A stretch of DNA of 47,762 nt. It comes from Loktanella sp. GTDB taxonomy: Bacteria > Pseudomonadota > Alphaproteobacteria > Rhodobacterales > Rhodobacteraceae. Location of the stretch: positions 1 to 47,762 of the forward strand of contig JAFPBO010000043.1 of the NCBI GenBank assembly GCA_017390475.1, written 5' to 3'. A model generated the notes under the pieces. That model was not told where the DNA came from. It did no database searches and was given only the letters and a program-made list of their open reading frames with translations. Position numbers and translations under genes: made by a program. Below, piece by piece: positions 14,678-44,046 of the stretch (positions are counted from its first letter, which is position 1; each line of letters starts with the position of its first letter).

Positions 14678-15008
14678 CTCGCAGCGAACGTGAAATGGGA
14701 CTGTCTCACGGTTGTCACCGGTCGGCCCATTACGAACCTTCAGTAAAAACATGTTGAATGTCTCCCGCCACATGCATGTGTAGAAACTCGCCCTGTTTTT
14801 CTTTCGTAATGACCCATGATTTCGACAAACCGTCGCAACCCCGACGCTTAGTTGCATGAATTCGGACGCAAGAGGAGTTGATGGGACACTCCTAGGAAGA
14901 AGGGCATTTGACTTAAAGGCCACCTTCTTGCACGTTAACCCTATACGTCATCAAGTAAAGTTGGTTCTCTGCGGCCACGACCAACGTCAACGCGAAAGGG
15001 AGCTTGAC
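14678..15008. other. Non-coding gap before the cargo genes
   Basis: This 331-bp gap between rep and the DUF262 gene holds an inverted repeat CATTACGAA (14728-14736)/TTCGTAATG (14803-14811), 66 bp apart, possibly an operator pair. A GAAAGGGAG ribosome-binding site lies just before 15009. Frames entering the DUF262 gene from here have no ribosome-binding site and no family match. The promoter of the cargo operon is probably here, as composition turns AT-rich. Confidence 0.4.
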
Positions 15009-22416: not shown

Positions 22417-22459
22417 CGCAATATTCCTATCTGGCAAGAGACACGCGGTGGATCAGCTT

Positions 22460-23287: not shown

Positions 23288-23302
23288 TTTATTTCTCCGG
23301 AA

Positions 23303-25060: not shown

Positions 25061-25075
25061 GATTTCGACCTCGTC

Positions 25076-27691: not shown

Positions 27692-27770
27692 CTGGGCCCC
27701 CAGGACATGGAATAATTGCCAAAAAAGGGGCAGAGCAGCGTTTCCGCCGCTCTGCCCTCAATCATTCGGA

Positions 27771-28736: not shown

Positions 28737-28815
28737 GGTCTCTCCTAAAATCTGTGCTGAAAACGACACGTGCATGTCGATTACTGATCCCGCATGACGG
28801 TTTTGCAAAAAATAT

Positions 28816-28833
28816 ATGTAAGTTTTATGACAA
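28816..28833 (-). promoter_or_regulatory. Pho box upstream of pstS
   Basis: On the minus strand TTGTCATAAAACTTACAT fits two 7-bp PhoB half-sites (TTGTCAT, CTTACAT) separated by AAAA, against the known CTGTCAT-N4-CTGTCAT pattern. It lies about 80 bp before the pstS ATG. PhoB encoded at the end of the same operon would close the loop. Confidence 0.75.
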
Positions 28834-29012
28834 TCCCCTCCATGGCGAGACGATAGCCGCCTTGCCATCGGCAGCCCATTTAGTGGCCGCTGCAGCGGCC
28901 CGTGCGCCGGGTGTCTTTAGTTGCAACGCAATTACGCTTGTCCAAGCGCCCCTTGCATCGTCGAACGCCGATCTGTATGTATCGGCTAACGACGATATGC
29001 AGGAGAGACATT

Positions 29013-29381
29013 ATGCTTGACCAAGAAACAATCACGCAGCACGAAGCGGCACTAATTGCGTCCATTGCAAAAGGCTTGGCGCATCCAGCACGAATCAGAA
29101 TCGTTTCATTTTTACTGTCGCGTCCGGGCTGTATTGGAGGCGATATCGTGGATCAGGTCGGTCTGGCGCAATCGACGGTGTCCGAACATCTGCGAGTTTT
29201 GAAAGATGCAGGGATCGTTCAAGGCACAATCGAATATCCGCGCATCTGTTATTCCCTGAATCCCGCCGCCCTGTCACCAATCAGAAAGCTGATCGACACC
29301 ATCGCGGCAAGATCGCCCGACAGCGATATCGAATGTCGCACGGCTGATGAACATGCGCTTACGGCAACCTCGATCGACTGA
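29013..29381 (+). CDS. arsR: ArsR-family arsenic-responsive repressor
   Basis: The protein has 122 residues from MLDQETITQHEAAL, with a perfect AGGAGAG site. A winged helix-turn-helix is clear: AKGLAHPARIRIVSFLL, then GDIVDQVGLAQSTVSEHLRVLKDAGIVQG. Cysteines occur at GCIGG, ICYSL and ECRTA, which could bind As(III), but the ELCVC site of the plasmid R773 type is absent. It is divergent from pstS and first in an operon with acr3, so it is probably an arsenite-derepressed regulator of the export genes and perhaps of pstS. Confidence 0.88.
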   Translation: MLDQETITQHEAALIASIAKGLAHPARIRIVSFLLSRPGCIGGDIVDQVGLAQSTVSEHLRVLKDAGIVQGTIEYPRICYSLNPAALSPIRKLIDTIAARSPDSDIECRTADEHALTATSID

Positions 29382-29441
29382 CTGCATTGGCAGACGGGAC
29401 CCGCGCGGCGCCAGAAATTGAATGCTATAAAGGAACATTAA

Positions 29442-30518
29442 ATGCCTGTTTTTGAACGCTACCTATCTGTCTGGGTAGCACTAGCGATTGTCGCCGGATT
29501 GGCGCTTGGCCAAATCGCACCTGCGCTGGTAAATTTTTTGGCGTCGTTGGAATATGGCTCGGTCAACTTCGTCGTCGCTATCCTGATCTGGTTCATGGTC
29601 TATCCGATGATGGTGTCAGTTGACTTCACGAGCCTCAAGCGGGTTCATGAACGCCCCAAAGGCATGATTATCACACTGGCTGTGAACTGGCTAATCAAGC
29701 CATTCACCATGGCCCTGCTGGGGCTGTTGTTCTTTAAATGGATCTTCGCCCCTTTCATCGAACCCGGCACATCAGGCCAATACATTGCGGGCCTGATACT
29801 GCTAGGGGCGGCGCCTTGCACTGCGATGGTCTTTGTCTGGTCACAACTGACCAAGGGTGATCCGAATTATACGCTCGCTCAAGTGTCGCTGAACGACGCG
29901 ATCATGGTCTTTGCCTATGCGCCCATCGTGGCCTTGTTGTTGGGTGTCACGGATATCGTGGTGCCTTGGGCGACGCTGATCTTGTCGGTCGGGCTTTATG
30001 TCGTCATCCCCTTGACGGCGGGTATCGTCACGCGCGTCGTGATGACCCGCAGTGTGGCCAATCCGGCAGCGGGTGAAGCTGCGGTCGCCACGTTCACCGC
30101 GACGGTCAAGCCATTCTCGATCATCGGCTTGCTCGCAACTGTAGTCCTGCTTTTCGGCTTCCAGGGCGAGGTGATCCTGTCCCAACCACTAGTCATCGTG
30201 ATGATCGCGATCCCGCTGTTGATCCAATCCTACGGCATGTTCGCGATTGCCTATTGGGCGGCAAAGGCGTGGCGCGTGCCGCATAACGTCGCCGCGCCTT
30301 GTGCCATGATCGGCACGTCGAATTTCTTTGAACTCGCCGTCGCGGTCGCCATTGGGCTGTTCGGCCTGAACTCTATCGCTGCGCTTGTCACCGTCGTCGG
30401 TGTGCTGGTCGAGGTGCCGGTGATGCTTTCGCTGGTATGGTTTGCGAACTGGACGCGCCACTGGTTCCCGGCCGAGGAAACGGCGATCCGCGAACGCAAA
30501 TCTTCGGCTAAAACCTGA
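29442..30518 (+). CDS. acr3: ACR3-family arsenite efflux transporter
   Basis: The protein has 358 residues with about ten hydrophobic helices. ACR3 signatures are visible: the helix-4 region [15 protein letters not shown] carrying the conserved cysteine, [16 protein letters not shown], and [19 protein letters not shown]3 (also called ArsB in some annotations, BART superfamily) exports As(OH)3 using membrane potential. It lies 60 bp downstream of arsR and 43 bp before the arsC-like gene. Confidence 0.95.
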
Positions 30519-30561
30519 TGCCTTCCAACCATGCCTATTCACCCCGATAAGGACTGAAATA

Positions 30562-31406
30562 ATGCGTATTCTTTTCCTCTGCGTCGCGAATTCCGCCCGC
30601 AGTCAGATAGCCGAAGGCCTCGCCCGCGCCATGCTGCCCGCATCAATCGAGGTGGCCAGCGCCGGCTCCGCCCCTGGCCAAATCAATCCGCTGACGATTG
30701 AAGCCCGGCCGAGGTGAACATCGACATCTCCACCCAACGCGCGAAAGCACTGGAGGACGTAACACCCGAAACCGCCGATCTGATCGTCACCCTTTGCGCC
30801 GAAGAGGTCTGCCCCTTCGTCCCCGGCCCGGTGCGCCGCCTGCATTGGCCTATCACCGACCCGTCAGCCGCGGGCGACATTGCTGCGTTTCGCACTGCCC
30901 GCGATCAGATCAAGGCACGCATCGAGGTGATGGTGGGGCTGATCGACGTGTCGGAAGGTCCGGCCGGAACCGAATTCCACGCCAGCCTGCGGGTGCGCGA
31001 TCTGGCCGCCAGCACACGGTTTTACGCTTGGCTGCTGAATACATGGCCAAAAGAATGGACGCATCGCTATGCGACCTTCATCCGGCCCGATCTGAACCTG
31101 AACTTTGTCATCATGGTCGCGGATGATACCGTGCTGCATCACGACACGCTCTATCACCTTGGCCTTGCCCTACCCGACCGCGCGGCGGTGATCGACGTCT
31201 ATCACCGGGCGGTGGCCATCGGCGCGCAGGTCTCAAAGCCACCCCGCACAACATGGAAAGGCACACCGCTGCATGAATTGTGGCTGACCGACCCCAACGG
31301 CACATTGATCGAAATCTACGCCCGCCTGACGGGTGATGAACTGGCCACCATGCCCGCAGATCAGGCGCCGGATTATCTGGTCCCCGGCACCGCACCTGTG
31401 GCCTGA
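30562..31406 (+). pseudogene. LMW-phosphatase ArsC fused to VOC domain, frameshifted
   Basis: The first frame [15 protein letters not shown] has the Cx5R loop (Cys7-Arg13) of low-molecular-weight phosphatase-type arsenate reductases and reads to a TGA at 30715. The +1/-1 shifted frame continues the same protein ([28 protein letters not shown], then WPITDPSAAGD), so one base is missing near 30705-30710 (expected GCC CTG GCC GAG GTG). After about 145 residues a glyoxalase/VOC domain follows (FHASLRVRDLAASTRFY..., YHLGLAL, ELWLTDPNGTLIEIYARL), as in ArsI-like or extradiol folds, but without the ArsI vicinal cysteines. Sequencing error is possible. Confidence 0.7.
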
Positions 31407-31408
31407 GG

Positions 31409-32488
31409 TCAGACCGCAGGCACCGCCTGCTCGGCTGCAGCGATCAGCCGGGCGGCAAGGCGGCCATAAGCCTCTGCCATCGGCCCCGTGCCCATGGCGA
31501 CCGGCACGCCGTCTTCACCGGCGCGCATCACTTCCATCGCAAGTGGCAGTTCGGCTAGCAAAGGCAGGCCGAGCCGCGTTGCCTCGCGCGTGACACCACC
31601 ATGGCCGAACAGATGCGCCTCATGCCCGCAATTTTCGCAGATATAGACAGACATGTTTTCGATCAGGCCGATGACTTCGGTCTTCAGCTCAGCAAAAGCT
31701 GACAGCGCCTTTTTCGCGTCGATCAGTGCCATATCCTGCGGCGTGGACACGACAATCGCGCCGGTTACATCGAAATGCGTGCAAAGCGTTAGTTGCACAT
31801 CGCCAGTGCCCGGCGGCATATCGACGATCAGCACATCCAGATCACCCCAGCGCACCTGCATCAGCAATTGCTGCAACGCGCCCATCAGCATCGGGCCGCG
31901 CCAGATCACCGCCTGCCCGTCCGGCAACATATTGGCGATCGACATAAAGCGGATGCCATGCGCCTCCAGCGGCAGGATCACCTTGCCATCGGGCGAAGCG
32001 GGCTGGCGATGCACGCCCATCATCTGCGACTGGCTGGGGCCATAGATATCGGCATCAAGCAGCCCGACTTTCCAGCCTTGCCGTGCCATCGCCACCGCCA
32101 GGTTGGCCGAAACCGTAGATTTGCCAACGCCACCTTTGCCCGATCCGATCGCAAGGATGCGTTTCACACCGGGGATCTGGCGTTGGGTCGGCGCGCCTTC
32201 GGGGTGGCGTCCGATGGTGATATTGGGCGGTTCTTTCGCCGCTTCATGCGCGGTGACGACGATCTGCACGGAACTGACACCGGGAAGGGCCATCAGCGCC
32301 GTTTCGGCTGCGGATTTGACCTGCGTCAGCGTGGCAGCTTCGGCTTTGTCGCGCGCTTCCAGCACGAAACGCACTGTGCCTTGGTCGCACGCCAGCGCCC
32401 GCACGCGGTCTTCAGAGACCAGATTGCCACCGCCAGGCAGGGAAATCGTGGTCAGGCAGGCGCGGATCTCGGTTAGTTCAAGCATCAT
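31409..32488 (-). CDS. Mrp/ApbC-type Fe-S cluster carrier ATPase
   Basis: The protein has 359 residues. The N-terminal DUF59/MIP18-like part (about 1-85) is followed by a P-loop NTPase with deviant Walker A GKGGVGKST, switch VDMPPGTGDVQL, and the C-terminal CENCG (CxxC) cluster-binding motif. It assembles or transfers [4Fe-4S] clusters. It ends 2 bp from the VOC gene on the opposite strand and follows moeA by 9 bp, so it belongs to the molybdoenzyme operon and may load its many Fe-S subunits. Confidence 0.92.
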   Translation of the reverse strand: MMLELTEIRACLTTISLPGGGNLVSEDRVRALACDQGTVRFVLEARDKAEAATLTQVKSAAETALMALPGVSSVQIVVTAHEAAKEPPNITIGRHPEGAPTQRQIPGVKRILAIGSGKGGVGKSTVSANLAVAMARQGWKVGLLDADIYGPSQSQMMGVHRQPASPDGKVILPLEAHGIRFMSIANMLPDGQAVIWRGPMLMGALQQLLMQVRWGDLDVLIVDMPPGTGDVQLTLCTHFDVTGAIVVSTPQDMALIDAKKALSAFAELKTEVIGLIENMSVYICENCGHEAHLFGHGGVTREATRLGLPLLAELPLAMEVMRAGEDGVPVAMGTGPMAEAYGRLAARLIAAAEQAVPAV

Positions 32489-32497
32489 AGTTCCAGT

Positions 32498-33733
32498 TCA
32501 AAAAGGCAGAAAGTCGATCAGATGACCGGCGGGCATATAGTCGGCATCGGCGGGGATCATTGCCAGACCGTTGGCTCGGGCAAGCAGGGCGATCCGCGCA
32601 GCAAAGGTCGGCGTCATCAATTGTGCCCGCGCCAGCCCGTCCGCGCCGGGGGGCAGCAGGGTCGCGGGGCGAAACTCCGCCCGCCCCGGCCTGCGGGACA
32701 GTTCAGCGTCTAGGCGGACTGTGGAAAACCTTAACCCCGGCGCAGCAATGCCCGCCCGCGCGCGCAGCACAGGCGCGCCAAGGCAGGTCCAAGTCACGAA
32801 TGCTGCAACAGGATTGCCAGGCAACCCGACATAAATCGCATCCCCCAAACGCCCCAACTCGACAGGCTTACCCGGCTTGATCGCGATCCGCAGCGCATCC
32901 ACCTTACCGCCCGCCGCGCGCAACAGACGCGGCATGTGATCCTCATCGCCGTCGGCCATCCCACCGGTCGAGATGACCAGATCAGCCCATCCCGCTGCCG
33001 CAATTAGGGCGGCGGCCAGTTGCGCGGGATCATCCGGAATCCCGCCCATGTCCCGCAATTCAACCCATGGGTCCTGCAATGCCGCATTGAGCAGATAGCG
33101 GTTGGCGTTCCAGATCTGCCCCGGTGCCAGCGCCTCGCCAGGATCGCGCAATTCTGATCCGGTGCAGAACAACGCCACACGGACCTGGCGGAATACCGCG
33201 ACATTTGCCGCACCTGTGGCAGCCAGCACACCCGCCTCGCGCGCGGCAATCACACGGCCCAAGGGCAGTACTTCGCCGCCTTGCGGCAAATCCTCGGCCT
33301 GTTTGCGGATATTGACGCCAAGGCGGGGACGCTCAAGCAAGGTGATCCTGTCGCCATCACGCTGCACATGTTCCTGCATGACGATGCAATCCGCGCCAGA
33401 CGGCACAGCCGCCCCGGTCAGGATGCGCAGGCACGCCCCTTGCGGCAGGTGCATCCCCGCATCTCCGGCCGTCACACGTCCGGCGACTGACAAATGCCAA
33501 GGCCCGGTCCCGGCAAGATCGGCAAGCCGCAATGCATAGCCATCCATCGCTGAATTATCAAACGGCGGCAGTGGCAGCGGCGATATTGCAGGCCGTGCCA
33601 GCACCCGCCCGGTGGCCTGTGTCAAGGGTAGACTGTCCACCGCCGTCACCGCCTTTGCCAGCGTCAGACCGATGGCCTGCGCCTCTTGCCAGCTTATCAC
33701 CGGAGCGGGGCCGGATGTGGTGCAATCCTTCAT
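32498..33733 (-). CDS. moeA: Molybdopterin molybdenumtransferase MoeA
   Basis: The protein has 411 residues. MoeA motifs: DNSAMDGYALR, GAAVPSGADCIVMQEH, CTGSEL, STGGMADGDEDH and GLPGNPVAAF. It inserts molybdate into adenylylated molybdopterin. It is an extra copy by context, lying 6 bp after the TorD-like chaperone gene inside the arx operon, where it likely ensures Mo-cofactor supply for the large subunit. AGGA sits 8 bases before the ATG. Confidence 0.95.
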   Translation of the reverse strand: MKDCTTSGPAPVISWQEAQAIGLTLAKAVTAVDSLPLTQATGRVLARPAISPLPLPPFDNSAMDGYALRLADLAGTGPWHLSVAGRVTAGDAGMHLPQGACLRILTGAAVPSGADCIVMQEHVQRDGDRITLLERPRLGVNIRKQAEDLPQGGEVLPLGRVIAAREAGVLAATGAANVAVFRQVRVALFCTGSELRDPGEALAPGQIWNANRYLLNAALQDPWVELRDMGGIPDDPAQLAAALIAAAGWADLVISTGGMADGDEDHMPRLLRAAGGKVDALRIAIKPGKPVELGRLGDAIYVGLPGNPVAAFVTWTCLGAPVLRARAGIAAPGLRFSTVRLDAELSRRPGRAEFRPATLLPPGADGLARAQLMTPTFAARIALLARANGLAMIPADADYMPAGHLIDFLPF

Positions 33734-33739
33734 TTCATC

Positions 33740-34576
33740 CTAACAATTGGCGCGTCGCGCCTCAAACACATCCTGATCCCAGCCGTCATTGGCGGCGACG
33801 TGATCCCAGGCCAGACCGTCGCGGTCGAGCATAAAGGCAATTTCAGCAAGATCGCTGGCGGTAAGCGCACCGACCCCGCGGGCTGATCCGGCGGGCAGTG
33901 TCGCCAGACCGGCCTTGATTTCAGCCATTTCAGGGGCAGCGGTCAAACCTTCGACCGCCAGCCAAATGATCCGCGCCAGATGCGCATAGACAGGGTTCAC
34001 GCCATGATTGCGGCTGGCAGTCTCCAGATCGCGCAGGAACGGGGTGATCCAGCGACACAGGTAATCGGTGATGATCTGATCGGCTTGCGACAAATAGGCA
34101 CGCGCATTGATATCTTCGCCGCCTTGCGCCTTTTGCCCCGCTTGTTCGTAAAGCAACGCCAGAAAGTCCGCCTGCACACCGACCGTATCATTGAGGTCGC
34201 GAAAATGGTCATGGCGTTCGAAGCCATGCGCCGCGTAGGACTTTTCAAGCGCCTGTGCCGCGGCACCCTGCAAGCCGCCGTCGATATAAAAACAGGTATT
34301 GACCATCACTGGCGTCGGCGGTGTCAGAAACAACGCCGCATAAAGTTTCTGCAAAGCCAGCGGATCGCGCAATTGCGAAGCAGCCGCGCGGAAGGCGGCA
34401 GTCCCTTCGCCGAGTTGCAGGCCAAGTTCTTCGGCAATGGCCGCAAGATCATCGGGCAGATCGGTCTGGAAAGCGTGCAGATAAGCATCATCCGTGCCCG
34501 GTGGCGCAAAGGCACGCGCAAGGCAAAGCCAGAAATCGCGCTTGGCAAAGGCTGTGGCGGCGATTGAATTCAACAT
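33740..34576 (-). CDS. arxD: TorD/DmsD-family chaperone (ArxD-like)
   Basis: The protein has 278 residues from MLNSIAATAFAKRDFW with GGAGGGATAAG upstream. It is all-helical and longer than most TorD proteins (about 200). Features include the LYAALFLTPPTP segment, FRDLNDTVGVQADFLALLYEQA (like the ExxxxDH region) and the helix CRWITPFLRDLE. TorD-type proteins bind the Tat signal and apo form of the Mo enzyme. It follows the NrfD subunit by 60 bp. The name arxD is by position and analogy. Confidence 0.75.
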   Translation of the reverse strand: MLNSIAATAFAKRDFWLCLARAFAPPGTDDAYLHAFQTDLPDDLAAIAEELGLQLGEGTAAFRAAASQLRDPLALQKLYAALFLTPPTPVMVNTCFYIDGGLQGAAAQALEKSYAAHGFERHDHFRDLNDTVGVQADFLALLYEQAGQKAQGGEDINARAYLSQADQIITDYLCRWITPFLRDLETASRNHGVNPVYAHLARIIWLAVEGLTAAPEMAEIKAGLATLPAGSARGVGALTASDLAEIAFMLDRDGLAWDHVAANDGWDQDVFEARRANC

Positions 34577-34636
34577 CTTATCCCTCCGGGAATTGCGTGA
34601 GGCCGGGTCATGCGCTCCGGCCACTTGTTTGCACCA

Positions 34637-35791
34637 TCACGCGCGGTCTTCGGCGCCCAATTGCCATGCGGCGAAAGCATAGACGCTGTTGGCCAGCCCC
34701 ACCGCCAGCACCAGCAAGGCCCATTCCCCGACAGAGGGGCTGTAATGCAGCAATTCCGGTGCCCAGGTGCCTTTGAACAAAGGCACCTGCTGGCCGCCGA
34801 TGATGAATTCATAGCGGCTGATCAGCAGCCCGACCATCACCAGAAAAGCAGCCAAAATCTGGATCATGCCGTTGGAACGGGTAGATTTCAGCACCATGAG
34901 CACAAAAGGCAGCGCAATGCAGCCCCACATGGCAAAGTGGAACAGCGGGTTGGCCACCAGATATTGCCAGACCTGCATCCCTTCGGCATTTGACCACAGG
35001 CCGGTCACCGCGCGTCCGGCATGCAGGATAAAGTGCAGACCAATGGAAATCGCGAACATCCGCGCCAGCGTGCCTTCGAACAACAGCCGGGTTTCGGGGC
35101 GCATATTGCCATGGTTGAACCCGTTCTTAAGGTGGCTGAAAAACACCGTAAAAGCCAGCGCTCCCATGAAGCTTTCGATCAGGAACACTACAGGCACATC
35201 GCCGCCAAACCACATCGGGCGCATCGCCATCATGCCGTAAACCGACCCCGCAACCAGCGTGACGATAAAGGCGAGTGCGGTCATCGGTATCATCAGGACG
35301 CTGCCTTTATCTTCGCGGGTGTTGATCTTTCCCAGAAGGACCAACGCCAGGAGCGCCGAATAGGCCGCGACCAGCAGCACCTTCCAGAACAGGGGCGACG
35401 CAGTTTGCAGGTTCAGCGGTGTAGCCCAGATCGCCACGAACGGATTACCCAGTTCCAGAAACAAGACCGCAACCCCGCCGATGATCGCTGCAAAGGCCAG
35501 CCACAGGCAGCGCCGGGCGACGGACCGAAACTCCTCCAACCCGAAGACATAGTAAAGCGAAGCCACCATCACCAATCCGGTCGAGGTCAGCAAAAAGTAG
35601 TCATAAACGACGATCGCAAAGCCCCAGAAAATCCCCGCATTGGTGGTGTTGAACTGCACCTTGCCAAAGGTGAACAGCTCATAAAGCACATAGCCCCCGC
35701 CAATTGCGAGCAGGACCAGCGCCACCACCAGATGCATTGCAAAGTGATTGCCCCGTGGTGCGCCGGGGGCGGTATCTGTCATCATAGTCAT
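34637..35791 (-). CDS. arxC: NrfD/PsrC-type membrane quinone subunit (ArxC-like)
   Basis: The protein has 384 residues with about eight to ten hydrophobic helices and no cofactor cysteines. NrfD features: IFWGFAIVVYDYFLLTSTG, ELGNPFVAIWATPLN and ISRYEFIIGGQQVPLF. It anchors the electron-transfer subunit and exchanges electrons with the quinone pool. It lies 20 bp after the Fe-S subunit gene; GGGAGGGAATG precedes the ATG at 35791. Confidence 0.85.
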   Translation of the reverse strand: MTMMTDTAPGAPRGNHFAMHLVVALVLLAIGGGYVLYELFTFGKVQFNTTNAGIFWGFAIVVYDYFLLTSTGLVMVASLYYVFGLEEFRSVARRCLWLAFAAIIGGVAVLFLELGNPFVAIWATPLNLQTASPLFWKVLLVAAYSALLALVLLGKINTREDKGSVLMIPMTALAFIVTLVAGSVYGMMAMRPMWFGGDVPVVFLIESFMGALAFTVFFSHLKNGFNHGNMRPETRLLFEGTLARMFAISIGLHFILHAGRAVTGLWSNAEGMQVWQYLVANPLFHFAMWGCIALPFVLMVLKSTRSNGMIQILAAFLVMVGLLISRYEFIIGGQQVPLFKGTWAPELLHYSPSVGEWALLVLAVGLANSVYAFAAWQLGAEDRA

Positions 35792-35811
35792 TTTTCATTC
35801 CCTCCCATAAC

Positions 35812-36570
35812 TCAGGACCGGCGCGAGCGGTTGCCCGGCACCACAGGTGACCCGCCACCCGACAGGTAATAGACCTTGGGCTTATTGCCGGTCTCTTCTT
35901 TCAGGCGCACGCCACCTTTGTCAGCGATCAACTGATTGACGTAGCTGTCGGGGTTATCCAGATCGCCAAAGAAACGTGATTTCGGCGCACAGACCCGCAC
36001 GCAGGCCGGAGTAAATTCCTTTGTCTCTGGGTTGTCTTCGTCCAGATCGGCGACACCTTCGGGGGCTTGGCTGATCTTGTGATAACAAAAGGTGCATTTG
36101 GACACGACGCCCTTGGGCTGGATGCCGATCCCCTTGGACGCATCCTCGTATTCATCGGGCATCTTGAAGGGCGGGTTCCAGGTTCGTTTGCCATCGCCGG
36201 GATAGGTGGCTTTGACATCGGGTTGCACCACAGGCGCTTCGTCCATGTAGAAGCGGACGCCATAGGGGCAGGCGACCATGCAATATTTACAGCCAATGCA
36301 TTTGTTCCAGTCCACCAGCACGACGCCAGTGCCTTCGTCCACATAGGTTGCCTTGGTCGGGCAGACGGATACGCAGCTTGGATTTTCACACTGCATGCAT
36401 GGGCGCGGCAACCACGACAGGTTCAAATGCGGATATTCGCCTTCGGAATAGAAAAGCACGTCCTGCCAGTTCTCGCCCGGAAGGCGGTTGTTTTCCATCG
36501 CGCAGGCCGTAGTGCAGGCCTGACACCCTGTGCAGGTTTCCAGGTCAATGACCATTCCCCATTTTGCCAT
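35812..36570 (-). CDS. arxB: 4 x [4Fe-4S] ferredoxin subunit (ArxB-like)
   Basis: The protein has 252 residues. Cluster motifs are C13TGCQACTTAC, then PCMQCENPSCVSVCP, KCIGCKYCMVACP, and KCTFC...PACVRVC, the four-cluster DmsB/PsrB/NrfC pattern. It passes electrons between the Mo subunit and the membrane subunit. Its gene follows the large subunit by 14 bp and is in the order A-B-C-D expected for arx and related phs/psr/ttr operons. Confidence 0.9.
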   Translation of the reverse strand: MAKWGMVIDLETCTGCQACTTACAMENNRLPGENWQDVLFYSEGEYPHLNLSWLPRPCMQCENPSCVSVCPTKATYVDEGTGVVLVDWNKCIGCKYCMVACPYGVRFYMDEAPVVQPDVKATYPGDGKRTWNPPFKMPDEYEDASKGIGIQPKGVVSKCTFCYHKISQAPEGVADLDEDNPETKEFTPACVRVCAPKSRFFGDLDNPDSYVNQLIADKGGVRLKEETGNKPKVYYLSGGGSPVVPGNRSRRS

Positions 36571-36584
36571 AATCGTATCCTCCC

Positions 36585-39239
36585 TCAGGCCTTGGTCACG
36601 TTGACCTTGCTGGAATAATAGTTTGCCTGCCCGGTGATCCGGTCAGACACGTTCACGGTCGCTTCGCCCGCATGTTCAGTTGGCACCGCCTTGGACCAGC
36701 GGCCCGCAGCCCAATGGCCATATTCCATCGGCAGCACGATCGTATCGGGCCGTACGCCCTGAAAATACCGCGCCGTCACCTCGACCGAGCCGACATCAGA
36801 GGTGATCTTGATCCGGTCGCCATCACTGATGTTGCGCGCACGCGCGGTATCGGGATGGATTTCGCAGAACGCCTGCCCGCGGCCACCGATGGTGGGTTGC
36901 AGATGCGCGATCACCATCGGGATGTTGTGCCCGCGACCTTCGGCATGCAGCGCCACTTTGGGCGTGACCAGATGCAGATCGCCGCCACCGTGATGCACCG
37001 GCTCTTCCCAGATCGGGAACATCAGATTGGCCGGGTCTCGCCCGGTTTTCTCCGCGATCCAATCAGAGTTTTGCTCCATCAGGCCAGAGCGGAATTCGAA
37101 CTTGCCAGATGGTGTCGGAAACACGATCTGTTTCACCTCTTCCGGCGTCATCTCGATACTGTAATCCGTGCCATCCCATTTGTAGAACGTGCCACCGATC
37201 TGGCGATAGATGTAACGGCGCTTGTACCAGACGCCCTTTTCCTTCCAGGATTCAAAATCATTGACCCCGTTGTCACCTGGATCAGCGCGGAACCCTTCGG
37301 CCAGATGGCGCAGCACGTTTTCGGTATCGCCAAGTTCGCGGTAATATTCGCCCATCGGCCCGTTGATCCGCTTGCCAATCTCGATCAGCACATCGCCGTA
37401 ATATTTGGTGTCATGGATTGGCTCAATCGCGGGGACCCGCAGCTGGGTCATGGGGAAGCCCTGGAACGGATAGGTCGGCGAGTCCTGCAAGCGTTCCAGA
37501 TAGGTGTGATCTGGCAGGATGAGATCTGCGTAATGCCCGGTTTCCGACGGGAACGGCGAAGTGTCGATAATGAAGACGTCTTTTAGCGCCTCTTCCCAGA
37601 CCTGCCCGTTCGGAGCGGTCCAGATCGGGTTGGTCAGGTAGAACATCATCGTGTCGAGCTTGTAGGGATCACCCGCCAGATGGTTCGGCCCGACATCCTG
37701 CATCATGTTGTTGGCCATGAGATAGCCATCCTCATGCCCCTTTTTGTCAATGCGAGGAAAATCCTTCCAATTGCCGTTCTGTGCCCAGTCATCCATGTAG
37801 TCGTTGGCATCGGCAGGCATCGGGCCATAGCTGGGGCCCATCTGCCCCATCATGCCGCCTTTGGCATAGAAAGCCCCCACGAGCGCATTCAACGAATGGA
37901 TGGCCATGCCGTTATAGATGCCGTTCGAATGGGCATGCGCGCCGCGTTCGTAGATTGCCATGGCCGGGCGCGTGGTGCCGAATTCACGCGCGACGGTGCG
38001 GATCGTCTCAGCCGGTATATCTGTCAGCTCTGCCGCCCATTCGGGGCTGCGGTCCTTCAGTTCGATATTCCACCATTCGACAAGCCCATGCACCCAGCGT
38101 TCATTGAACCGACCGGTAGCTACATTGGGGACCGGCCCGTCTGCGGGTTCATCATCATAGACCAGCGCATCAAGTGGAACGACAGTGCCGCCTTCGGGCG
38201 AATCGAGCGACGGCTCCTGCGGAAGGTTAGCCTCTTGATCAACGCTGGTGCTGTTTGGCACGGGCTGGGCTGTCGCGGCAACTGGCACGTCCTGACCGGG
38301 AACGAAGCGGTTCACACCGTCGTCGAAATCGCCAACAAAGCTTTTCTCCCACAGCCCTTCGGCCAGGATGACATGAGCGATTGCCAGCGCCAGCGCACCA
38401 TCCCGGCCCGGCTTGATCAACAAGGCGCGGTCGGATGCCGCAAGCGTGGTGTTCATATGCACATCAACAGCCGTCACGCGGGTTTTCGGCGTCTTGCGGC
38501 CACGGATATGGCCCCAGACCTGCATGTTGTTGTTATAGGGGCGGAACGCCTCCAGAAACCCTACGCCGAACATCAGGATATAGTTGGTATTGTTATAGTC
38601 GTAAGAATTATAGGCGGCGTTGCCCTCAACCATTTTTTTGGAAATAATCGATCCGTCCGAACACATCGAGCTATGCCCGATCGCCACGTTGGGCGATCCG
38701 TAAAGCTGACCGAAAGCGCCGTGCAGCCCGGCACAGGACGCCCCCCAGCCACGGCCATAAAGCAACGCAAAACGGTGGCTTTCACCAGCATCGCGCAGGT
38801 TGTTCAAGCGGCCTGCGACGGTATCCAGCGCCTCGTCCCACGAAATCGGCACGAAACCAGGATCTTCATCGCGGCCCTTGCTGGGGTTGGTGCGCTTCAT
38901 CGGGCCGCGCCAGCGGTCTGGGTCATATAGGACATAGGTCCCAAGCGGCCCCTTGGGGCAGAGTTTGCCGTTCGAAATCGGGTGATCCGCCGTGCCATAG
39001 ATCGCATGCACCCGGCCATCGGTGGTGTAGACGTCGATGCCGCAACGCGCCGGGCATTGGTGACAGATGTTCTTGGTGATCACCGTATTGGGTTTGGCGC
39101 GCGCGGTCTGCGCCTCGGCGCTGGTCGCTTCCATTCCGGTGCCGGGTATGCCGACAACGGCAGCGGCGGTCGCCGCGCCGGTCACACCTGTGGCCTGAAG
39201 AAACCTGCGGCGGCTGACATTGGTGTTGATTTCATCCAT
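36585..39239 (-). CDS. arxA: Arsenite oxidase large subunit, ArxA type (DMSO-reductase family)
   Basis: The protein has 884 residues. Its Tat signal is SRRRFLQA at 9-16. The [4Fe-4S] cysteines are C59, C62, C66 and C94 (NICHQCPARC...KLCPKG), and the probable Mo ligand is Cys193 in GHSSMCSDG. YGRGWG at 161-166 matches the XGRGWG motif that, as I recall, is reported to mark ArxA against ArrA. The bis-MGD domains are complete (FDD...VVPLDAL, HTYLERLQDSPTYPFQG). It should oxidise As(III) to As(V) in the periplasm with quinone as acceptor, in the reverse sense of the related ArrA. It has a long acidic/proline insertion at about 318-375. It starts 8 bp before the B' stop. Alternative: another PsrA/PhsA/TtrA-like reductase. 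Confidence 0.78.
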   Translation of the reverse strand: MDEINTNVSRRRFLQATGVTGAATAAAVVGIPGTGMEATSAEAQTARAKPNTVITKNICHQCPARCGIDVYTTDGRVHAIYGTADHPISNGKLCPKGPLGTYVLYDPDRWRGPMKRTNPSKGRDEDPGFVPISWDEALDTVAGRLNNLRDAGESHRFALLYGRGWGASCAGLHGAFGQLYGSPNVAIGHSSMCSDGSIISKKMVEGNAAYNSYDYNNTNYILMFGVGFLEAFRPYNNNMQVWGHIRGRKTPKTRVTAVDVHMNTTLAASDRALLIKPGRDGALALAIAHVILAEGLWEKSFVGDFDDGVNRFVPGQDVPVAATAQPVPNSTSVDQEANLPQEPSLDSPEGGTVVPLDALVYDDEPADGPVPNVATGRFNERWVHGLVEWWNIELKDRSPEWAAELTDIPAETIRTVAREFGTTRPAMAIYERGAHAHSNGIYNGMAIHSLNALVGAFYAKGGMMGQMGPSYGPMPADANDYMDDWAQNGNWKDFPRIDKKGHEDGYLMANNMMQDVGPNHLAGDPYKLDTMMFYLTNPIWTAPNGQVWEEALKDVFIIDTSPFPSETGHYADLILPDHTYLERLQDSPTYPFQGFPMTQLRVPAIEPIHDTKYYGDVLIEIGKRINGPMGEYYRELGDTENVLRHLAEGFRADPGDNGVNDFESWKEKGVWYKRRYIYRQIGGTFYKWDGTDYSIEMTPEEVKQIVFPTPSGKFEFRSGLMEQNSDWIAEKTGRDPANLMFPIWEEPVHHGGGDLHLVTPKVALHAEGRGHNIPMVIAHLQPTIGGRGQAFCEIHPDTARARNISDGDRIKITSDVGSVEVTARYFQGVRPDTIVLPMEYGHWAAGRWSKAVPTEHAGEATVNVSDRITGQANYYSSKVNVTKA

Positions 39240-40323
39240 GTGGATATTCCTCCCCTTCGTGCAAAATCTTGTGTTGGCGCCGCATCAGACCATGGCCAAG
39301 TGCTGCGATAGCGTTGTCGCGGGCACAGGCGGTGCAGGTGGACTGGCCGACGTTGGGTGTGAAGCGTGACCGGCAGAGGCTGCAGGTCGCGCGGGGTTCG
39401 GTCAGAAGAACATCAGATCCGGTAAAATGCCATGATTCAGCAGGCTCGAAGGCAATCAGCCCGGTCGCGACGCAGATACCGCATTCTGTGCAAGCGGTCG
39501 GATCAAAGATCAGCGCGCGGCTTGCCGCATCCTCGGTCACTTTCAGCGCATTGGTGGGGCAGAGGCGCGCCAACACATTCAAATCGGCAACCGGGCCGGT
39601 CACCTGCGCCTTCGGGAAAAGGCTGCGCGGCACGGCGTTCGTTCTCGCAATCCTGGCAAGCTGCGCTGCGCGCTGTGCAAGCCGCGGCGTGACGGTTTTG
39701 TCAGGGATGTTATCGACGGGAACGTTGAGCGCATCATTGTCCGCCAGCGCGTTGAACAATCTGCGCCGCGATGGGTTATCGGTGGGGGCTTGCGGCGCAG
39801 GCTTGGCGCGCCAGTCCGACAAAGGCTCTTGCGCGACATGCACCCGCTGCGGCACATCAAGTAATGCCATTTCTGCATTCACTTCACCCACCGTCTGCGC
39901 CCAAGGCGTCGACACGCCGCCCGAAAGCGCACAATCACGGCACCAGCCACGATCCACCAGCGTCACATCACCCTGCTCCAGCGCCGCGCGCAAATGCCCA
40001 TCGGTCAATCCGCCCAAACAGGGCACTGCACGCCCTGCGGGCTTGCGGACGCGGGCACAATCCAACCGCGCGGCTGGACCGAAAAACGCGACATTGATCG
40101 CACCCGTCGGACAAGACGGCGCGCAAAGCCCGCAGCCAGAGCAGGCCTCCACTTGAATGGTCACATCCCGGCCGTGAATGGCGATCGCATATTCAGGGCA
40201 CGCCACAGCACAGGCGTTGCAGGCGGCATCGGGCCGCTGCACCGTCAGACATGCCGACAAGGCAAGCCGCATCGGCACAGCTGACGCGTTTCGCGCAGTA
40301 TTTCTGGCGCGGATGGCTGTCAT
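39232..40323 (-). CDS. Multi-[4Fe-4S] ferredoxin protein (ArxB'-like)
   Basis: The protein has 363 residues from ATG 40323, with GGGAGGGATC upstream; a longer frame to 40521 is upstream DNA. Four cluster motifs: CNACAVACP, CSGCGLCAPSCP, CTECGICVAT (fourth ligand displaced), and the C-terminal CSLC...CTACARD. The middle part is basic. It begins the operon and its stop overlaps the arxA start by 8 bp, so the two are coupled. An extra ferredoxin gene upstream of arxA, named arxB', is reported for arx clusters; the name here is by that analogy. Without a signal peptide it is probably cytoplasmic or exported only with a partner. Confidence 0.7.
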   Translation of the reverse strand: MTAIRARNTARNASAVPMRLALSACLTVQRPDAACNACAVACPEYAIAIHGRDVTIQVEACSGCGLCAPSCPTGAINVAFFGPAARLDCARVRKPAGRAVPCLGGLTDGHLRAALEQGDVTLVDRGWCRDCALSGGVSTPWAQTVGEVNAEMALLDVPQRVHVAQEPLSDWRAKPAPQAPTDNPSRRRLFNALADNDALNVPVDNIPDKTVTPRLAQRAAQLARIARTNAVPRSLFPKAQVTGPVADLNVLARLCPTNALKVTEDAASRALIFDPTACTECGICVATGLIAFEPAESWHFTGSDVLLTEPRATCSLCRSRFTPNVGQSTCTACARDNAIAALGHGLMRRQHKILHEGEEYPHG

Positions 40324-40464
40324 GATCCCTCCCTGGCGGCAGGTGCATTGCTGCACGTGCTGGCTTGGTCCCCGAGTGCAGGATAGCAGATTGCATGCCG
40401 CGCCATACCGAAACACACGGTGGATTACGTCGCATATCCCACTGATTTTTATGTATATATCAGG

Positions 40465-40484
40465 GCGTCCGGATTTCCGGACGC
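40465..40484. terminator. Hairpin between the sensory operon and arxB'
   Basis: GCGTCCGG/CCGGACGC, an 8-bp perfect stem with loop ATTT, lies 20 bp past the arxR stop on the minus strand. The T run after it is poor (CCTGATATATAC), so it may be a weak terminator or a regulatory dyad in the arx promoter. Confidence 0.45.
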
Positions 40485-40504
40485 TTGCGTCCGACATGCT
40501 TGCG

Positions 40505-41758
40505 TCAAGATTGCGGATCAATCCCGAGCTTTTGCATCTTGTCCCACAGGGTAGACCGGCCGACCTGCAGCAGCTTTGCCGCTGCGGTCAGCGACCCGTT
40601 ACAATGCGCCAAGGCCCGTTCGATCTGCACTCTTTCAGCAGCATCCCGGGTTTCGGCCAAAGGCACGAAGCTGCCATCGTTGGGGCTACGAGCATCGCCG
40701 ACACCTTCGGGGAAAAGGTCGGTGGGGAACAACATGTCCCCCTCCGCAACCGCCATCGCTCGCATCAAGCGGGACCGTAATTCGCGCCCGTTTCCCGGCC
40801 ACTCATAGACCCGCGCAGCCGTATCTGCCTGCGCAGACACACCCCGCAAAGGTTGGGCACGGCGCGCATTCATCCCGTCAAACAGCCGTGCCAGCAGCCA
40901 TGACACATCGTCAGGGCGCGCGCGCAGCGGCGGGATCGTGACCGGTAGAACCGAAAGGTGAAAATAAAGATCGGGCCGCAGATCACTGGGGCTAAAATCC
41001 GGCCCTGCGGTGACAACCAACCGTGGACCGCCATTGCCTGACCACATCCTTGCCAACAGTGCGCTTTGCAATGCGTCAGAGGCGGCGGTGATCTGTTCCA
41101 GCAGGATCACACCCTCGCCTGCCCGTGCGAATAGCCCGGTTTGGGGCGTAAACAGCGTATCATGCAGCACATTGGCACTGTCGCGGGTCAGATCGCACGT
41201 CACAAAGGGCGCAGCACAGCGGTCCGACAGACGGTGCAGGCGTTGCGCGACAGCACGTTTGCCGGTGCCTGCCTCGCCCAGCAGCAGCACCGGTTCATCA
41301 CGGGCTGCGACGCGCACCAGATCCGCATCCAGCGCCTTGCAAGCTTGTGAGACGCCGAACCACGCCCCGGTTCCTGCATCGGGCAAAGGCGCTGTCACCT
41401 GCACCAACCGGGATATGATATCAGTGATCTCGAACGGCTTGAGGACGTAATCCGCGGCACCTGAACGTAACAAGCGCACCGCTTGATCGGTCGCACCGGC
41501 ACCAGTCATAAAGACAAAAGGCGGCGGATGGCCATGATCGCACAGGCGCAGAAACAGGTCCTCGCCCGACCCATCGGGCAAACGAATATCACAAAGCACT
41601 GCGTCAAAAGGGATACGCGGCGTCCGCAATGCCCCAAGCGCGCGGTGCAGGGTTTTATGCCAGACGACCCTTGCGCCTTCCAGCTCCAGTCGTTGTAACA
41701 ATGACGCGCCCATGATCTCGTCATCTTCGATCAGCGCGATATGACGGCCTTCAAGCAT
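40505..41758 (-). CDS. arxR: NtrC-family response regulator (ArxR-like), no GAFTGA motif
   Basis: The protein has 417 residues from MLEGRHIALIEDDE. The receiver domain has Asp57 (LCDIRLPD), Thr85 and Lys107. The AAA+ domain has Walker A GEAGTGK at 161-167, but the Walker B region reads GVILLEQI rather than GTLFLDEI, and no GAFTGA sigma-54 contact motif is seen between them. The Fis-type HTH is intact at the C-terminus (GSLTAAAKLLQVGRSTLWDKM). Known NtrC-like proteins without GAFTGA (Rhodobacter NtrC, HupR) act with sigma-70. Its start overlaps the arxS stop by 8 bp. It probably controls arxB'ABCD. Confidence 0.82.
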   Translation of the reverse strand: MLEGRHIALIEDDEIMGASLLQRLELEGARVVWHKTLHRALGALRTPRIPFDAVLCDIRLPDGSGEDLFLRLCDHGHPPPFVFMTGAGATDQAVRLLRSGAADYVLKPFEITDIISRLVQVTAPLPDAGTGAWFGVSQACKALDADLVRVAARDEPVLLLGEAGTGKRAVAQRLHRLSDRCAAPFVTCDLTRDSANVLHDTLFTPQTGLFARAGEGVILLEQITAASDALQSALLARMWSGNGGPRLVVTAGPDFSPSDLRPDLYFHLSVLPVTIPPLRARPDDVSWLLARLFDGMNARRAQPLRGVSAQADTAARVYEWPGNGRELRSRLMRAMAVAEGDMLFPTDLFPEGVGDARSPNDGSFVPLAETRDAAERVQIERALAHCNGSLTAAAKLLQVGRSTLWDKMQKLGIDPQS

Positions 41759-43175
41759 CGTCTTGGGTCCACAGTGGCAAATCAACCTCGATCATATGAT
41801 AGCCGGCGTCAGTCTGACCAAGCGCGATCCGCCCGTCCAGCTGGTTTACCAGATCGCGGACCAACCGCAGACCCAGACCGCCCCCCGGCTCTACCGGATC
41901 ATCGCTCAGCAACCGGGGCCGTAGATGCGCGGGCAGACCGGGGCCACTATCCCAGATACGCAGGTGCATCATCTGATCCCGCGCCGCAACATGTAGACCC
42001 AAGCGCCCGTCCACAGGCGTCGCGCCCGCAGCGTTCAGCAACAAATTAAGAACGATCTGGCGGACAGGGCCTGCAAACAAACCGCTGCAATCAGCGTTGG
42101 TGATTGCGACATGCCAATCAAGGCTCTGGTTCAGCCGCTCGACCTCTGGCCGGATCAGCTGGTGCAGGTCATCAAAATCCGCAGGTGTCAAGGGCAACGC
42201 GGATTGATCGCTGCGGTGCATATGCAGCGTCGTCTGCACCACCTCGCGCATCTGTTTCAATCCACGTTCCAGAATACCGGCAGACTGCTGCACGACATCG
42301 GGACGATCTGGATAGCGTTGCAATGTATCGGTGGCGTTTAGCAGACCACCCAGCGGATTGTTGATCTCATGCGCCAGCGTCCCAGCAAGACGGCCAAGGC
42401 TGACGAACCGTTCGCGTTCCGATAGCCGCTTTTCGGTCAGACCACGCGCCTCTACCGCACGGATCATACCGTTGTAGGTCTGGTAGAGATTGGCGAGTTC
42501 GGTGTCATATTGCGGGATCATCGCCTCTGGAAAGGCGCGCGACGCGCCACCGGGCTGTGACATCTCGCGCGACAGTCGCCCGATCGGAGCCAGCACCCGG
42601 CGGATTAGGACGTATCCAGCGGACGCCAGAACAAGCGTCGCCGTCAGATTGCCCGCTATCAGCCAAAACCATGTCTGGCGCCGTTCTGCGGCCAGTTCGG
42701 TAACGTCAAAGTCGATGATCAAGGCGGCGATTGTCCGGCCCTGAAAGTCAACATTCTGCCGCAGGGAAATCTGATCCTGCGCGCTGTCATAATTGAGTTG
42801 TCCGACAGGCGTTGCCGCATTAATCAGGGCAACGCCCGGCGCACCGACCGGATGGATATCCGGCTGCGTGGCTACAATCACCCTGCCCTGCTCATCGACA
42901 AGTGCCGCAGCAACGGGGGAAAAGCCACCGACTCGCTGCGTGGCGCGGTCCAGCACATCGAACATTTCCCAAATGTCCTGACGCTGGATCAACGGCGCCA
43001 GCGTCGTTGATAAAGTCGCAAATTCCGATTGCGCCAGATCGGAAAGCTGGCGTTCCTGCGACCGCACCAGCGCGGTCAAAACAAGCTGCGAGGCGATGAT
43101 CCCCATCACCACCATCAGCCCAGAGACCATCAAAGGCACCCGCACACTTAGCGGCAAGGTCAAACGCAGCGGCAT
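41751..43175 (-). CDS. arxS: Sensor histidine kinase (ArxS-like)
   Basis: The protein has 474 residues from ATG 43175, five bases after the arxX stop; an earlier in-frame GTG at 43199 overlaps arxX. Helix 1 lies at about 13-37, a periplasmic domain of about 130 residues, helix 2 at about 170-192, a HAMP-like region, HisKA with phospho-acceptor His269 in GTLAHEINNPLGG, and HATPase_c with N box NLLLNAAGATP, G1 DSGPGLP and G2 GGGLGLRLV. It should respond to the periplasmic sensor encoded just upstream and phosphorylate ArxR. Confidence 0.88.
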   Translation of the reverse strand: MPLRLTLPLSVRVPLMVSGLMVVMGIIASQLVLTALVRSQERQLSDLAQSEFATLSTTLAPLIQRQDIWEMFDVLDRATQRVGGFSPVAAALVDEQGRVIVATQPDIHPVGAPGVALINAATPVGQLNYDSAQDQISLRQNVDFQGRTIAALIIDFDVTELAAERRQTWFWLIAGNLTATLVLASAGYVLIRRVLAPIGRLSREMSQPGGASRAFPEAMIPQYDTELANLYQTYNGMIRAVEARGLTEKRLSERERFVSLGRLAGTLAHEINNPLGGLLNATDTLQRYPDRPDVVQQSAGILERGLKQMREVVQTTLHMHRSDQSALPLTPADFDDLHQLIRPEVERLNQSLDWHVAITNADCSGLFAGPVRQIVLNLLLNAAGATPVDGRLGLHVAARDQMMHLRIWDSGPGLPAHLRPRLLSDDPVEPGGGLGLRLVRDLVNQLDGRIALGQTDAGYHMIEVDLPLWTQDDA

Positions 43176-43179
43176 CCGG

Positions 43180-44046
43180 TCAATCCCGCTCCGCAACACG
43201 GGACATCAACGCCGCGATGCTGTCAAAGCTGTCAGGCTGCGGCAAAGCAAAGCCATCCAGTTGCAGCTGGCCCAAAACATTGCGCCCAGACGCAGTCTGA
43301 TCCAACGTGAACAGCGCATCGTTGATGGCGCGCGTGGCCGATGCATTGCGCGCTTCAGTAGCAAAGACAAAGGGTGGAAATCCGTGCCAGCCTGATCGCC
43401 ACAAGACCCGCGTCTGCGCGATCAGTTCCGGCTCTGTGCGGGCCAATGCGTCGTAGACATAACCATCGACGCTACCCGATGTCGCAAGCCGCCGCGCGAC
43501 GGCGCGCACTACATTGCGATGTCCAAAGGTGAAAAAGCTGCGCGAGAAATAGCCATCGGGCCGCTCGTTGCGTGCCACAAGTTCAGCAACGGTCACAAGG
43601 TGCCCTGAATTTGAGTCGGGGTCGGAGTAAGCATGAATATCTCCACGCAAGTCAGCAATTTCGCTCGCTTGCCGGTCATCAGCTGTGATGATGTAACCAC
43701 GATACCGCGGCGCACCGTTCCAAACCGGTAAGGCAAGCGCCTGCAATCGATCCGCGTGCTGCAATAAGGGATAACCGCAAAGCCAGGCGGCATCCAATTC
43801 GCCCAGCAATAATAATGCCACAACCTCTTTGTAGGTGCGTCGCTGGACAAATTCTGTGGCGTGACCGGTCACGGCCTGAATGTGATCGCGCAGATATTCC
43901 AGCACCACCCATTCGTTATCAAGAAAAACCGGGGTCAGACCAATGCGCAAAGGCAGTGCGTCTTGTGCCATCACTCTGTGCGAAGCGCATATAGCGCCAC
44001 CTATTGCAGCCAAGAAGTATCGCCGGTCAGAGGCATATTTTATCAT
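43180..44046 (-). CDS. arxX: PhnD-like periplasmic sensor protein (ArxX/AioX-like)
   Basis: The protein has 288 residues from ATG 44046 with AGGA 9 bases upstream; the frame continues upstream without a ribosome-binding site. A signal peptide at about 1-27 ends near VMAQDA. The fold is the phosphonate-binding PhnD type: GLTPVFL, TYKEVVALLLLGELDAAWLCGYPLL, GYIITADD, SDPDSNSG. Cys90 in AWLCGYP falls where AioX proteins have the As(III)-binding cysteine region. With the kinase and NtrC-type regulator that follow it forms an X-S-R triplet as in aio and arx clusters, so it is the probable arsenite sensor. Confidence 0.8.
   Translation of the reverse strand: MIKYASDRRYFLAAIGGAICASHRVMAQDALPLRIGLTPVFLDNEWVVLEYLRDHIQAVTGHATEFVQRRTYKEVVALLLLGELDAAWLCGYPLLQHADRLQALALPVWNGAPRYRGYIITADDRQASEIADLRGDIHAYSDPDSNSGHLVTVAELVARNERPDGYFSRSFFTFGHRNVVRAVARRLATSGSVDGYVYDALARTEPELIAQTRVLWRSGWHGFPPFVFATEARNASATRAINDALFTLDQTASGRNVLGQLQLDGFALPQPDSFDSIAALMSRVAERD

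Follow-up and report, generated by a model that had tools for sequence, protein, structure and literature searches.

Positions 1–47,762 of contig JAFPBO010000043.1 (forward strand) of Loktanella sp. (Rhodobacteraceae; assembly GCA_017390475.1), a stretch that we call the window, carry an operon for an Arx-type arsenite oxidase. Judging from gene content, alignments and trees, its arx catalytic genes sit behind an aio-type switch, i.e., a regulatory module of the AioXSR type (arxX, arxS and arxR) together with its palindrome, and the regulator of this switch lacks the GAFTGA loop in a genome without a match to sigma-54. We think it probable that the operon encodes an arsenite-inducible oxidase that feeds quinone and is switched without sigma-54, its activity and its promoter type being predictions. 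As far as the papers listed in searches of the open-licence literature show, none of which we recognised as dealing with a sigma-54-free AioR or ArxR, such an aio-type switch is undescribed.

Sensor module and palindrome

Relatives were collected in one scan of genome contigs, which confirmed 94 of them, and our counts use the best 80 of these 94 (79 distinct loci). An arxR was counted in 37 arx loci, to which L068, with an arxR match of 106 bits, does not belong; the XSR genes are divergent in 32 of the 37 and co-directional in five (L007, L009, L055, L085 and L062). The window, which does not have the common divergent arrangement, is the sixth locus with co-directional arxXSR; arx clusters without XSR, or with XSR placed otherwise, also appear in the available part of PMC6549141. 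Regulators on the same strand upstream of the oxidase genes are the arrangement of all eight alphaproteobacterial aio loci that we read (the aioX of L151 being an unannotated tblastn match), the single betaproteobacterial aio locus being divergent; L154, which has no adjoining aio genes, was not used.

Phylogenetic trees of the module, for which 23 of the 37 arx loci were taken, group it in the same way. When X, S and R are combined in one tree, the Arx modules of Rhodobacterales, five in number, join the four Rhodobacterales Aio modules (support of 100), and this group then joins the other alphaproteobacterial Aio modules and L062 (100), while the opposite side of the tree holds 18 other Arx modules, one of them alphaproteobacterial (L035), and the betaproteobacterial Aio module. 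Since the main split (bootstrap/SH-aLRT: 100/100) and the union of Rhodobacterales Aio and Arx (99/99) are also recovered when R is omitted, the grouping is not caused by the degenerate domain that these regulators share. In this X+S tree, for which gene fragments were better recovered than in an earlier version (L007 filled to 13%, L019 and L031 to 38%), the Arx modules are nested inside the Rhodobacterales Aio rows (98/96) with L147 left outside, which on the strength of that one row favours aio as the putative donor of the switch. Moreover, the AU test rejects a single clade of all Arx-linked modules (XSR: p 8e-151; X+S: p 4e-6 and 4e-50). As for the sensor itself, all seven pocket residues of AioX are kept in ArxX (Tyr88, Cys106, Tyr131, Ser161, Ser163, His192 and Asp210; list from PMC5908839, mapped by hand on the 6esv alignment with an offset of 21).

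The window holds one exact copy of the palindrome, GTCCGGAAATCCGGAC, 159 bp upstream of the arxB2 start. In the five other co-directional loci, the palindrome GTYCGGNNNNCCGRAC occurs twice between arxR and arxB2, 32–33 bp apart, with one mismatch in 2 of the 10 copies (one in a Rhodobacterales pair spaced by 33 bp, one in the L062 pair spaced by 32 bp). Exact copies number nine in the 80 loci (1.36 Mb), of which eight lie between arxR and arxB2 of co-directional loci; that of the window comes in addition. According to the available text of PMC5335332, the AioR of A. tumefaciens GW4 was footprinted with DNase on GTTCGGATTTCCGAAC, which is letter for letter the L062 copy; its spacer is not that of GTCCGGAAATCCGGAC, and the arms of the two differ at a single pair of symmetrically placed positions. 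The GTT...AAC forms (L062, L085 and Rhodobacterales aio) match the recorded AioR consensus GTTN10AAC, from which the GTC...GAC forms (window, L055, L007 and L009) deviate at the paired third positions. An exact palindrome lies at most 450 nt from aioB in three of the four Rhodobacterales aio loci; that of the remaining one, L147, is situated between aioR and an insertion sequence element. Within the same distance of their first oxidase gene, none of the 32 divergent arx loci has an exact copy of GTYCGGN4CCGRAC; 22 of these (among L010–L080) carry instead, once or twice and about 100–310 nt before that gene, the palindrome GTTACCNNNNGGTAAC (GTTACCN4GGTAAC). The latter, of which we met no description in the literature consulted, also fits GTTN10AAC and is the probable ArxR operator of divergent-type arx loci.

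ArxR, its promoter and sigma-54

The GAFTGA loop is absent from all five Rhodobacterales ArxR (window, L007, L009, L055 and L085) and from all four Rhodobacterales AioR examined, while the other regulators keep it or a variant: 33 of 33 counted ArxR (30 GAFTGA, two GAFSGA and one GSFTGA) and 5 of 5 AioR (four GAFTGA and one GSFSGA). In all nine Rhodobacterales regulators, the DE of Walker B is replaced too (by EQ or ER in Arx, by other letters in Aio); the five ArxR retain a Walker A of the form GxxGTGKR. The stretch of the receiver aspartate is kept. A sigma-54 promoter score of at least 10/12 in the last 150 nt is reached by 0 of the 9 loci without GAFTGA vs. 26 of the 37 with it. For comparison, palindromes and −24/−12 boxes were present in all 12 aioBA operons with aioXSR examined by Li 2013 (PMC3834237), and XSR-controlled aio operons studied to date are described as RpoN-dependent in the parts of the literature available to us.

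In the genome of the window (99.99% complete), the search for the sigma-54 DNA-binding domain PF04552 returned no match to rpoN. Of seven further arx genomes (completeness figures not given), five gave a match in the same search, as did 4 of 14 controls; the genomes of L006 and L056 gave none, and the plasmid record is uninformative. R. steppense has two rpoN matches. The change in ArxR is not a consequence of rpoN loss, because L055, L007 and L009 keep rpoN without GAFTGA, and rpoN loss alone is accordingly rejected as the cause of the missing loop.

Several observations weigh against a switch of aio origin that works without sigma-54. With its altered Walker B, the regulator might be a failing one, yet the frames are open in nine loci that have this change. 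Of the GAFTGA-bearing loci, 11 of 37 also fail the strict promoter score, and the Fisher p of 1.5e-4 for the contrast between promoter and GAFTGA does not come from independent cases and is a guide only, because the loci are related. The window has a weak sigma-54-like match at the usual distance (9/12; shuffle p ~0.11), while L055 has a 10/12 match in a wider scan, located inside arxR. A scan of 31300–45000 for sigma-70 sites found six vs. 6.2 expected, none of them on the sense strand of the arxR–arxB2 gap; one 10/12 site lies upstream of arxX at 44470–44441. The window has a single good palindrome, while its four Rhodobacterales relatives carry a pair 33 bp apart. Finally, moeA is considered below as a part of aio–arx exchange, but of the other arx loci from Rhodobacterales, five extend beyond arxD and only one of these (L077) has it. 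If ArxR were still coupled to sigma-54, rpoN would have to be missing from the draft only and the loop loss would have to be without effect. We hold this to be very improbable: the 9/12 match at the right distance and the rpoN genes of the three relatives with a GAFTGA-less ArxR speak for it, but the near-complete genome without an rpoN match, the success of the same search elsewhere and the joint alteration of loop and Walker B in all nine Rhodobacterales regulators examined speak against it.

A precedent exists in the same order, in that the NtrC of R. capsulatus is said to use sigma-70, a finding reportedly owed to a study by Bowman and Kranz in 1998. In the accessible passages of PMC10274813, this NtrC, in which GAFTGA is missing, reportedly works with sigma-70 by binding ATP and not by hydrolysing it, while ATP binding and hydrolysis are both needed by the NtrC of Caulobacter. 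Between arxR and arxB2, a block that begins with GGTATG..C..GCAT (40379–40409, minus strand) is similar in the window, L055 and L007; it contains the weak 9/12 match, lies near the usual position of the sigma-54 box of other loci, and is perhaps a replacement promoter or a relic.

The oxidase, its neighbours and its distribution

The gene set and order given by the initial annotation, arxX-S-R-B2-A-B-C-D-moeA-mrp, were confirmed as ten open frames on the minus strand (31409–44046), each with family matches far above chance in profile searches (Table 1). From arxX to mrp, the intergenic gaps are −20, −35, 181, −8, 14, 20, 12, 6 and 9 bp, the widest being that between arxR and arxB2. Two genes have alternative starts: 44046 is one ATG of arxX, whose longest open reading frame (ORF) starts at 44142, and the listed ORF of arxB2 begins at 40521, while an ATG after a good ribosome-binding site lies at 40323. 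No Rfam family and no tRNA were found in the window.

Table 1. Coordinates of the arx operon and of the arsenic-related genes beside it in the window.
Feature	Position	Strand	Basis
arxX, periplasmic arsenite sensor, AioX family	43180..44046	-	phmmer to AioX 6esv, E 1.5e-84
arxS, sensor histidine kinase	41751..43199	-	HisKA + HATPase_c; X+S tree
arxR, NtrC-type response regulator without GAFTGA loop, altered Walker B (ILLEQI)	40505..41785	-	Pfam, alignments
Predicted ArxR operator, GTCCGGAAATCCGGAC	40467..40482	-	palindrome, likeness to footprinted AioR site
arxB2 (arxB'), ferredoxin-like Fe-S protein	39232..40323	-	Fer4; B2 of other arx loci matched by tblastn
arxA, molybdopterin catalytic subunit, 884 aa, Tat, [4Fe-4S], YGRGWG	36585..39239	-	motifs, Pfam, tree
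ArxA insert, ~55 aa, approximate limits	38118..38282	-	alignment
arxB, Fe-S electron-transfer subunit	35812..36570	-	Fer4_11 etc.; 62-95% identity to arxB of other loci
arxC, NrfD/PsrC membrane anchor	34637..35791	-	NrfD, E 1.1e-19
arxD, TorD-like chaperone	33740..34624	-	Nitrate_red_del, E 1.3e-15
moeA, molybdotransferase	32498..33733	-	family matches, tree
mrp/apbC-type Fe-S carrier ATPase	31409..32488	-	family match; 61% to the genome's own copy on contig C8
ars genes (arsR 28902-29381, acr3 29442-30518, arsC/arsI region 30714-31406)	28902..31406	+	family matches
pstS-pstC-pstA-pstB-phoU-phoB, phosphate uptake	20981..28868	-	pstS above cut-off; rest are ORFs matching annotated pst/pho of L085

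By its sequence, the enzyme is a sound member of Arx, with arsenite oxidation as its predicted activity; tree, motif, operon and the arsenic-related context all support the identity first proposed. The features read from the large subunit at that stage also stand, i.e., a Tat signal (SRRRFLQ; TAT_signal: 21.1 bits, slightly below the cut-off of 22.7), the cluster motif C-x2-C-x3-C-x27-C and YGRGWG. The phylogeny that had been proposed for ArxA was computed as a quick tree of 96 rows (80 ArxA, 11 Arr and five distant outgroup rows, one of them PhsA), from which TtrA and AioA rows, 12 of the 23 Arr rows, the ArxA fragments L057, L077 and L084, the paralogs L023 and L051 and the genome's own Nas were left out. 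The 80 ArxA rows, that of the window included, form one group (SH-aLRT: 100) separate from the 11 Arr rows, the five outgroup rows being weakly joined, so that the window ArxA is placed neither with ArrA nor with the PhsA row. GRGWG is present in 80 of the 80 ArxA rows that hold the region (79 distinct; three fragments fall short of it), and RGRY at the same position in 23 of the 23 Arr rows, in keeping with the meaning that the available text of PMC6549141 gives to XGRGWG in ArxA vs. (R/K)GRY. Seven Rhodobacterales ArxA rows make up one clade (100) inside an alphaproteobacterial group with Geminicoccaceae and L062, while the remaining alphaproteobacterial rows (L024, L035, L058 and L068) are placed elsewhere in the ArxA clade. 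Because its part of the tree holds Ectothiorhodospira, we infer that the window ArxA belongs to group 2 of Ospino 2019 (PMC6549141). That the enzyme is a respiratory arsenate reductase (ArrA-like), or that it acts on another oxyanion, such as antimonite or a sulfur species, deserves very little credence: ArrA is the nearest solved structure (6cz7, from Shewanella; E 4e-101, 342 bits) and also leads the NCBIfam matches, where its 412.6 bits fall far below the cut-off of 1600, but the position inside ArxA, the GRGWG of the window aligned with the RGRY of 6cz7, B2, the AioX-type sensor with its arsenite pocket and the surrounding arsenic island all speak against these readings. At two other loci (L060 and L063), an ArrA-like gene (RGRY, Arr clade) lies in the same 19–22 kb as arx, i.e., an arsenic oxidase and a reductase adjoin.

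The ArxA of the window has an insert rich in proline and acidic residues near residues 320–374, extra relative to R. steppense, common to L006 and shorter in L007 and L009. Its position is that of the lysine/alanine-rich insert of Sulfuricella denitrificans and of three ArxA of the same branch (L082, L050 and L051). The accessible text of Ospino 2019 (PMC6549141) limits the long insertion to group 3, which makes this site look like a tolerant loop that has been put to use on two occasions or more.

The moeA and mrp genes downstream of arxD were considered as a possible novelty, but an own MoeA has precedents in alphaproteobacterial aio operons (e.g., moeA1 of NT-26, in the part of PMC6011840 available). 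MoeA/Glp is found downstream in 5 of 8 alphaproteobacterial aio loci (L147, L149, L150, L151 and L152), including 1 of 4 in Rhodobacterales. The window MoeA groups, with a SH-aLRT of 93, with the MoeA of L077, a Rhodobacteraceae fragment in which it is linked to arx, and with the Glp beside aio in Pseudosulfitobacter (L147), apart from the two other copies of the genome, although the deeper forks of this tree are weak; this placement suggests, but only suggests, that moeA was part of aio–arx exchange. Regarding mrp, the search of the 80 arx loci, some of which are incomplete, gave no match. Outside the operon, the genome carries two more copies of moeA and two more of mrp with high scores; a moeA and an mrp among these lie close to a formate-dehydrogenase-like gene on contig C18 (L112, C18:38000–56000), paired as they are beside arx. 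Given the aio precedent for moeA and the additional copies of both genes, we rejected the idea that an own MoeA and Mrp are something new for Arx. Another cofactor gene at arx, moaA, directly follows arxD on the Sulfuricella plasmid pSCD (L137).

Five proteins of the genome match the molybdopterin-binding domain: ArxA, two formate-dehydrogenase-like proteins, one like assimilatory nitrate reductase and one SoeA-like protein, the last named by reading (best family score of 51 bits, for PhsA). No AioA match above the cut-off was found in this genome. Nap and Nar we infer, rather than observe, to be absent from it, because the four other molybdoproteins were read in part and lie below curated cut-offs.

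The operon sits within an arsenic island made of ars genes and a pst-pho block, the acr3 of which scores 389.5 bits against TIGR00832 (cut-off: 282.8). At 30502–31406 (plus strand), an ArsC-type start and an ArsC end with an ArsI-like domain are in different frames; the fused ArsC-ArsI frame is intact in L056, and the broken frame of the window is either real or a sequencing error. Further away (11557–16977, plus strand) lie genes for a tyrosine integrase and for GmrSD_N and HEPN_RiboL-PSP proteins, besides an ORF that has no Pfam match; together they resemble an inserted cassette, which may include a defence pair.

Contrary to the extension of range first claimed, the occurrence of the enzyme in Alphaproteobacteria is not new, and this candidate novelty is ruled out by published and genomic precedents. 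In the text available to us, Ospino 2019 (PMC6549141) lists Alphaproteobacteria in ARX group 2, some of the genomes being without arxD and some without XSR, and Badilla 2018 (PMC5908839) reports arx in Magnetospirillum. Other carriers within Rhodobacterales are Rhodovulum steppense, Cereibacter azotoformans and several metagenome-assembled genomes. In C. azotoformans ORIO from Owens River, arx, ars and pst-pho lie together on pORIO3 (L085, NZ_CP089969.1), a plasmid typed as conjugative and thus a possible transfer vehicle for arx. The distribution is patchy: within the genus, a single genome out of 56 has arx, and in a sample of the family 2 of 394 do, the genome of the window being counted in both. 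This patchiness, the altered Walker B, the single palindrome, the broken arsC/arsI frame next door and the integrase on the same contig would fit decaying or silent transfer cargo, an explanation that we nonetheless find highly improbable, as all ten frames are open, pocket, cofactor and motif residues are kept, and ArxB and ArxA are 95% and 85–86% identical to the nearest relative over the stretch which that relative holds.

Physiology and comparison with known systems

Reaction-centre genes (pufL and pufM) lie among bch- and crt-like genes in the genome, these gene names coming from ORF reading. The genome thereby combines a reaction centre with Arx, one of the features expected for photoarsenotrophy (light-driven arsenite oxidation). 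Reaction-centre genes occur in 4 of the 6 other Rhodobacterales arx genomes searched, and in 6 of the 15 genomes that this search covered in total. No match to PF00016 (RuBisCO) was found in the genome, the search among CO2 pathways being limited to RuBisCO.

In the mechanism that we propose, arsenite would bind ArxX in the periplasm, ArxS would phosphorylate ArxR, and ArxR on the palindrome upstream of arxB2 would recruit RNA polymerase in its housekeeping form, in the way that NtrC of R. capsulatus is reported to do. Tat-exported ArxAB would then oxidise arsenite to arsenate. NrfD-type anchors pass electrons into quinone, and because of this known role the electrons would flow via ArxC to quinone, then onward to cytochromes, oxygen or the light-driven reaction centre; RuBisCO-based CO2 fixation would be no outlet for them here. 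A wider reading, to which we give even chances, is that the arsenite switch of Rhodobacterales (Aio/Arx) lost its ties to both sigma-54 and the ATP-driven opening of promoters before arx genes were placed behind it, and that a bacterium without sigma-54 and RuBisCO can thereby pass electrons from arsenite into a quinone cycle driven by light.

If this holds, arsenite use would be photoheterotrophic rather than autotrophic: with Arx, a reaction centre and no RuBisCO match, arsenite could serve light-driven energy conservation without RuBisCO autotrophy. The nine Rhodobacterales loci (five Arx and four Aio), with a palindrome but no strong −24/−12 box and regulators without sigma-54 parts, would offer a direct test case of an NtrC-type regulator converting to another polymerase form, the second such regulator besides NtrC. 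They also suggest that arx and aio catalytic genes are exchangeable behind one sensor.

Compared with known systems (the published ones as far as the available texts describe them), the window resembles Arx group 2 (PMC6549141; Ectothiorhodospira and Thiocapsa by tree neighbours) in its arxB2ABCD set and order, GRGWG, Tat signal and tree position. It differs from this group in arxXSR being on the same strand upstream rather than divergent, in moeA and mrp downstream, in the ArxA insert, and in an AioR-type palindrome GTYCGGN4CCGRAC instead of GTTACCN4GGTAAC. With the alphaproteobacterial aioXSR-aioBA loci (NT-26, Ensifer, Bosea, Acuticoccus and Rhodobacterales plasmids), it shares the same-strand X-S-R, the palindrome type, the XSR phylogeny and, for those loci that have it, MoeA/Glp behind the oxidase, whereas its catalytic genes are arxB2ABCD instead of aioBA; moreover, the four such loci from outside Rhodobacterales, unlike the window, keep GAFTGA (or GSFSGA) and a −24/−12-like box. 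The arxXSR of Magnetospirillum (PMC5908839) is similar in that an Arx-linked XSR groups with the XSR of alphaproteobacterial aerobic arsenite oxidisers. ArrA (PDB 6cz7) belongs to the same enzyme family as the window ArxA but to a separate clade, with RGRY where ArxA has GRGWG. Finally, the NtrC of Rhodobacter capsulatus (PMC10274813) is, like ArxR, an NtrC-family regulator of Rhodobacterales that has lost GAFTGA, but it is another regulator answering another stimulus, and in ArxR the Walker B is altered as well and the use of sigma-70 is putative.

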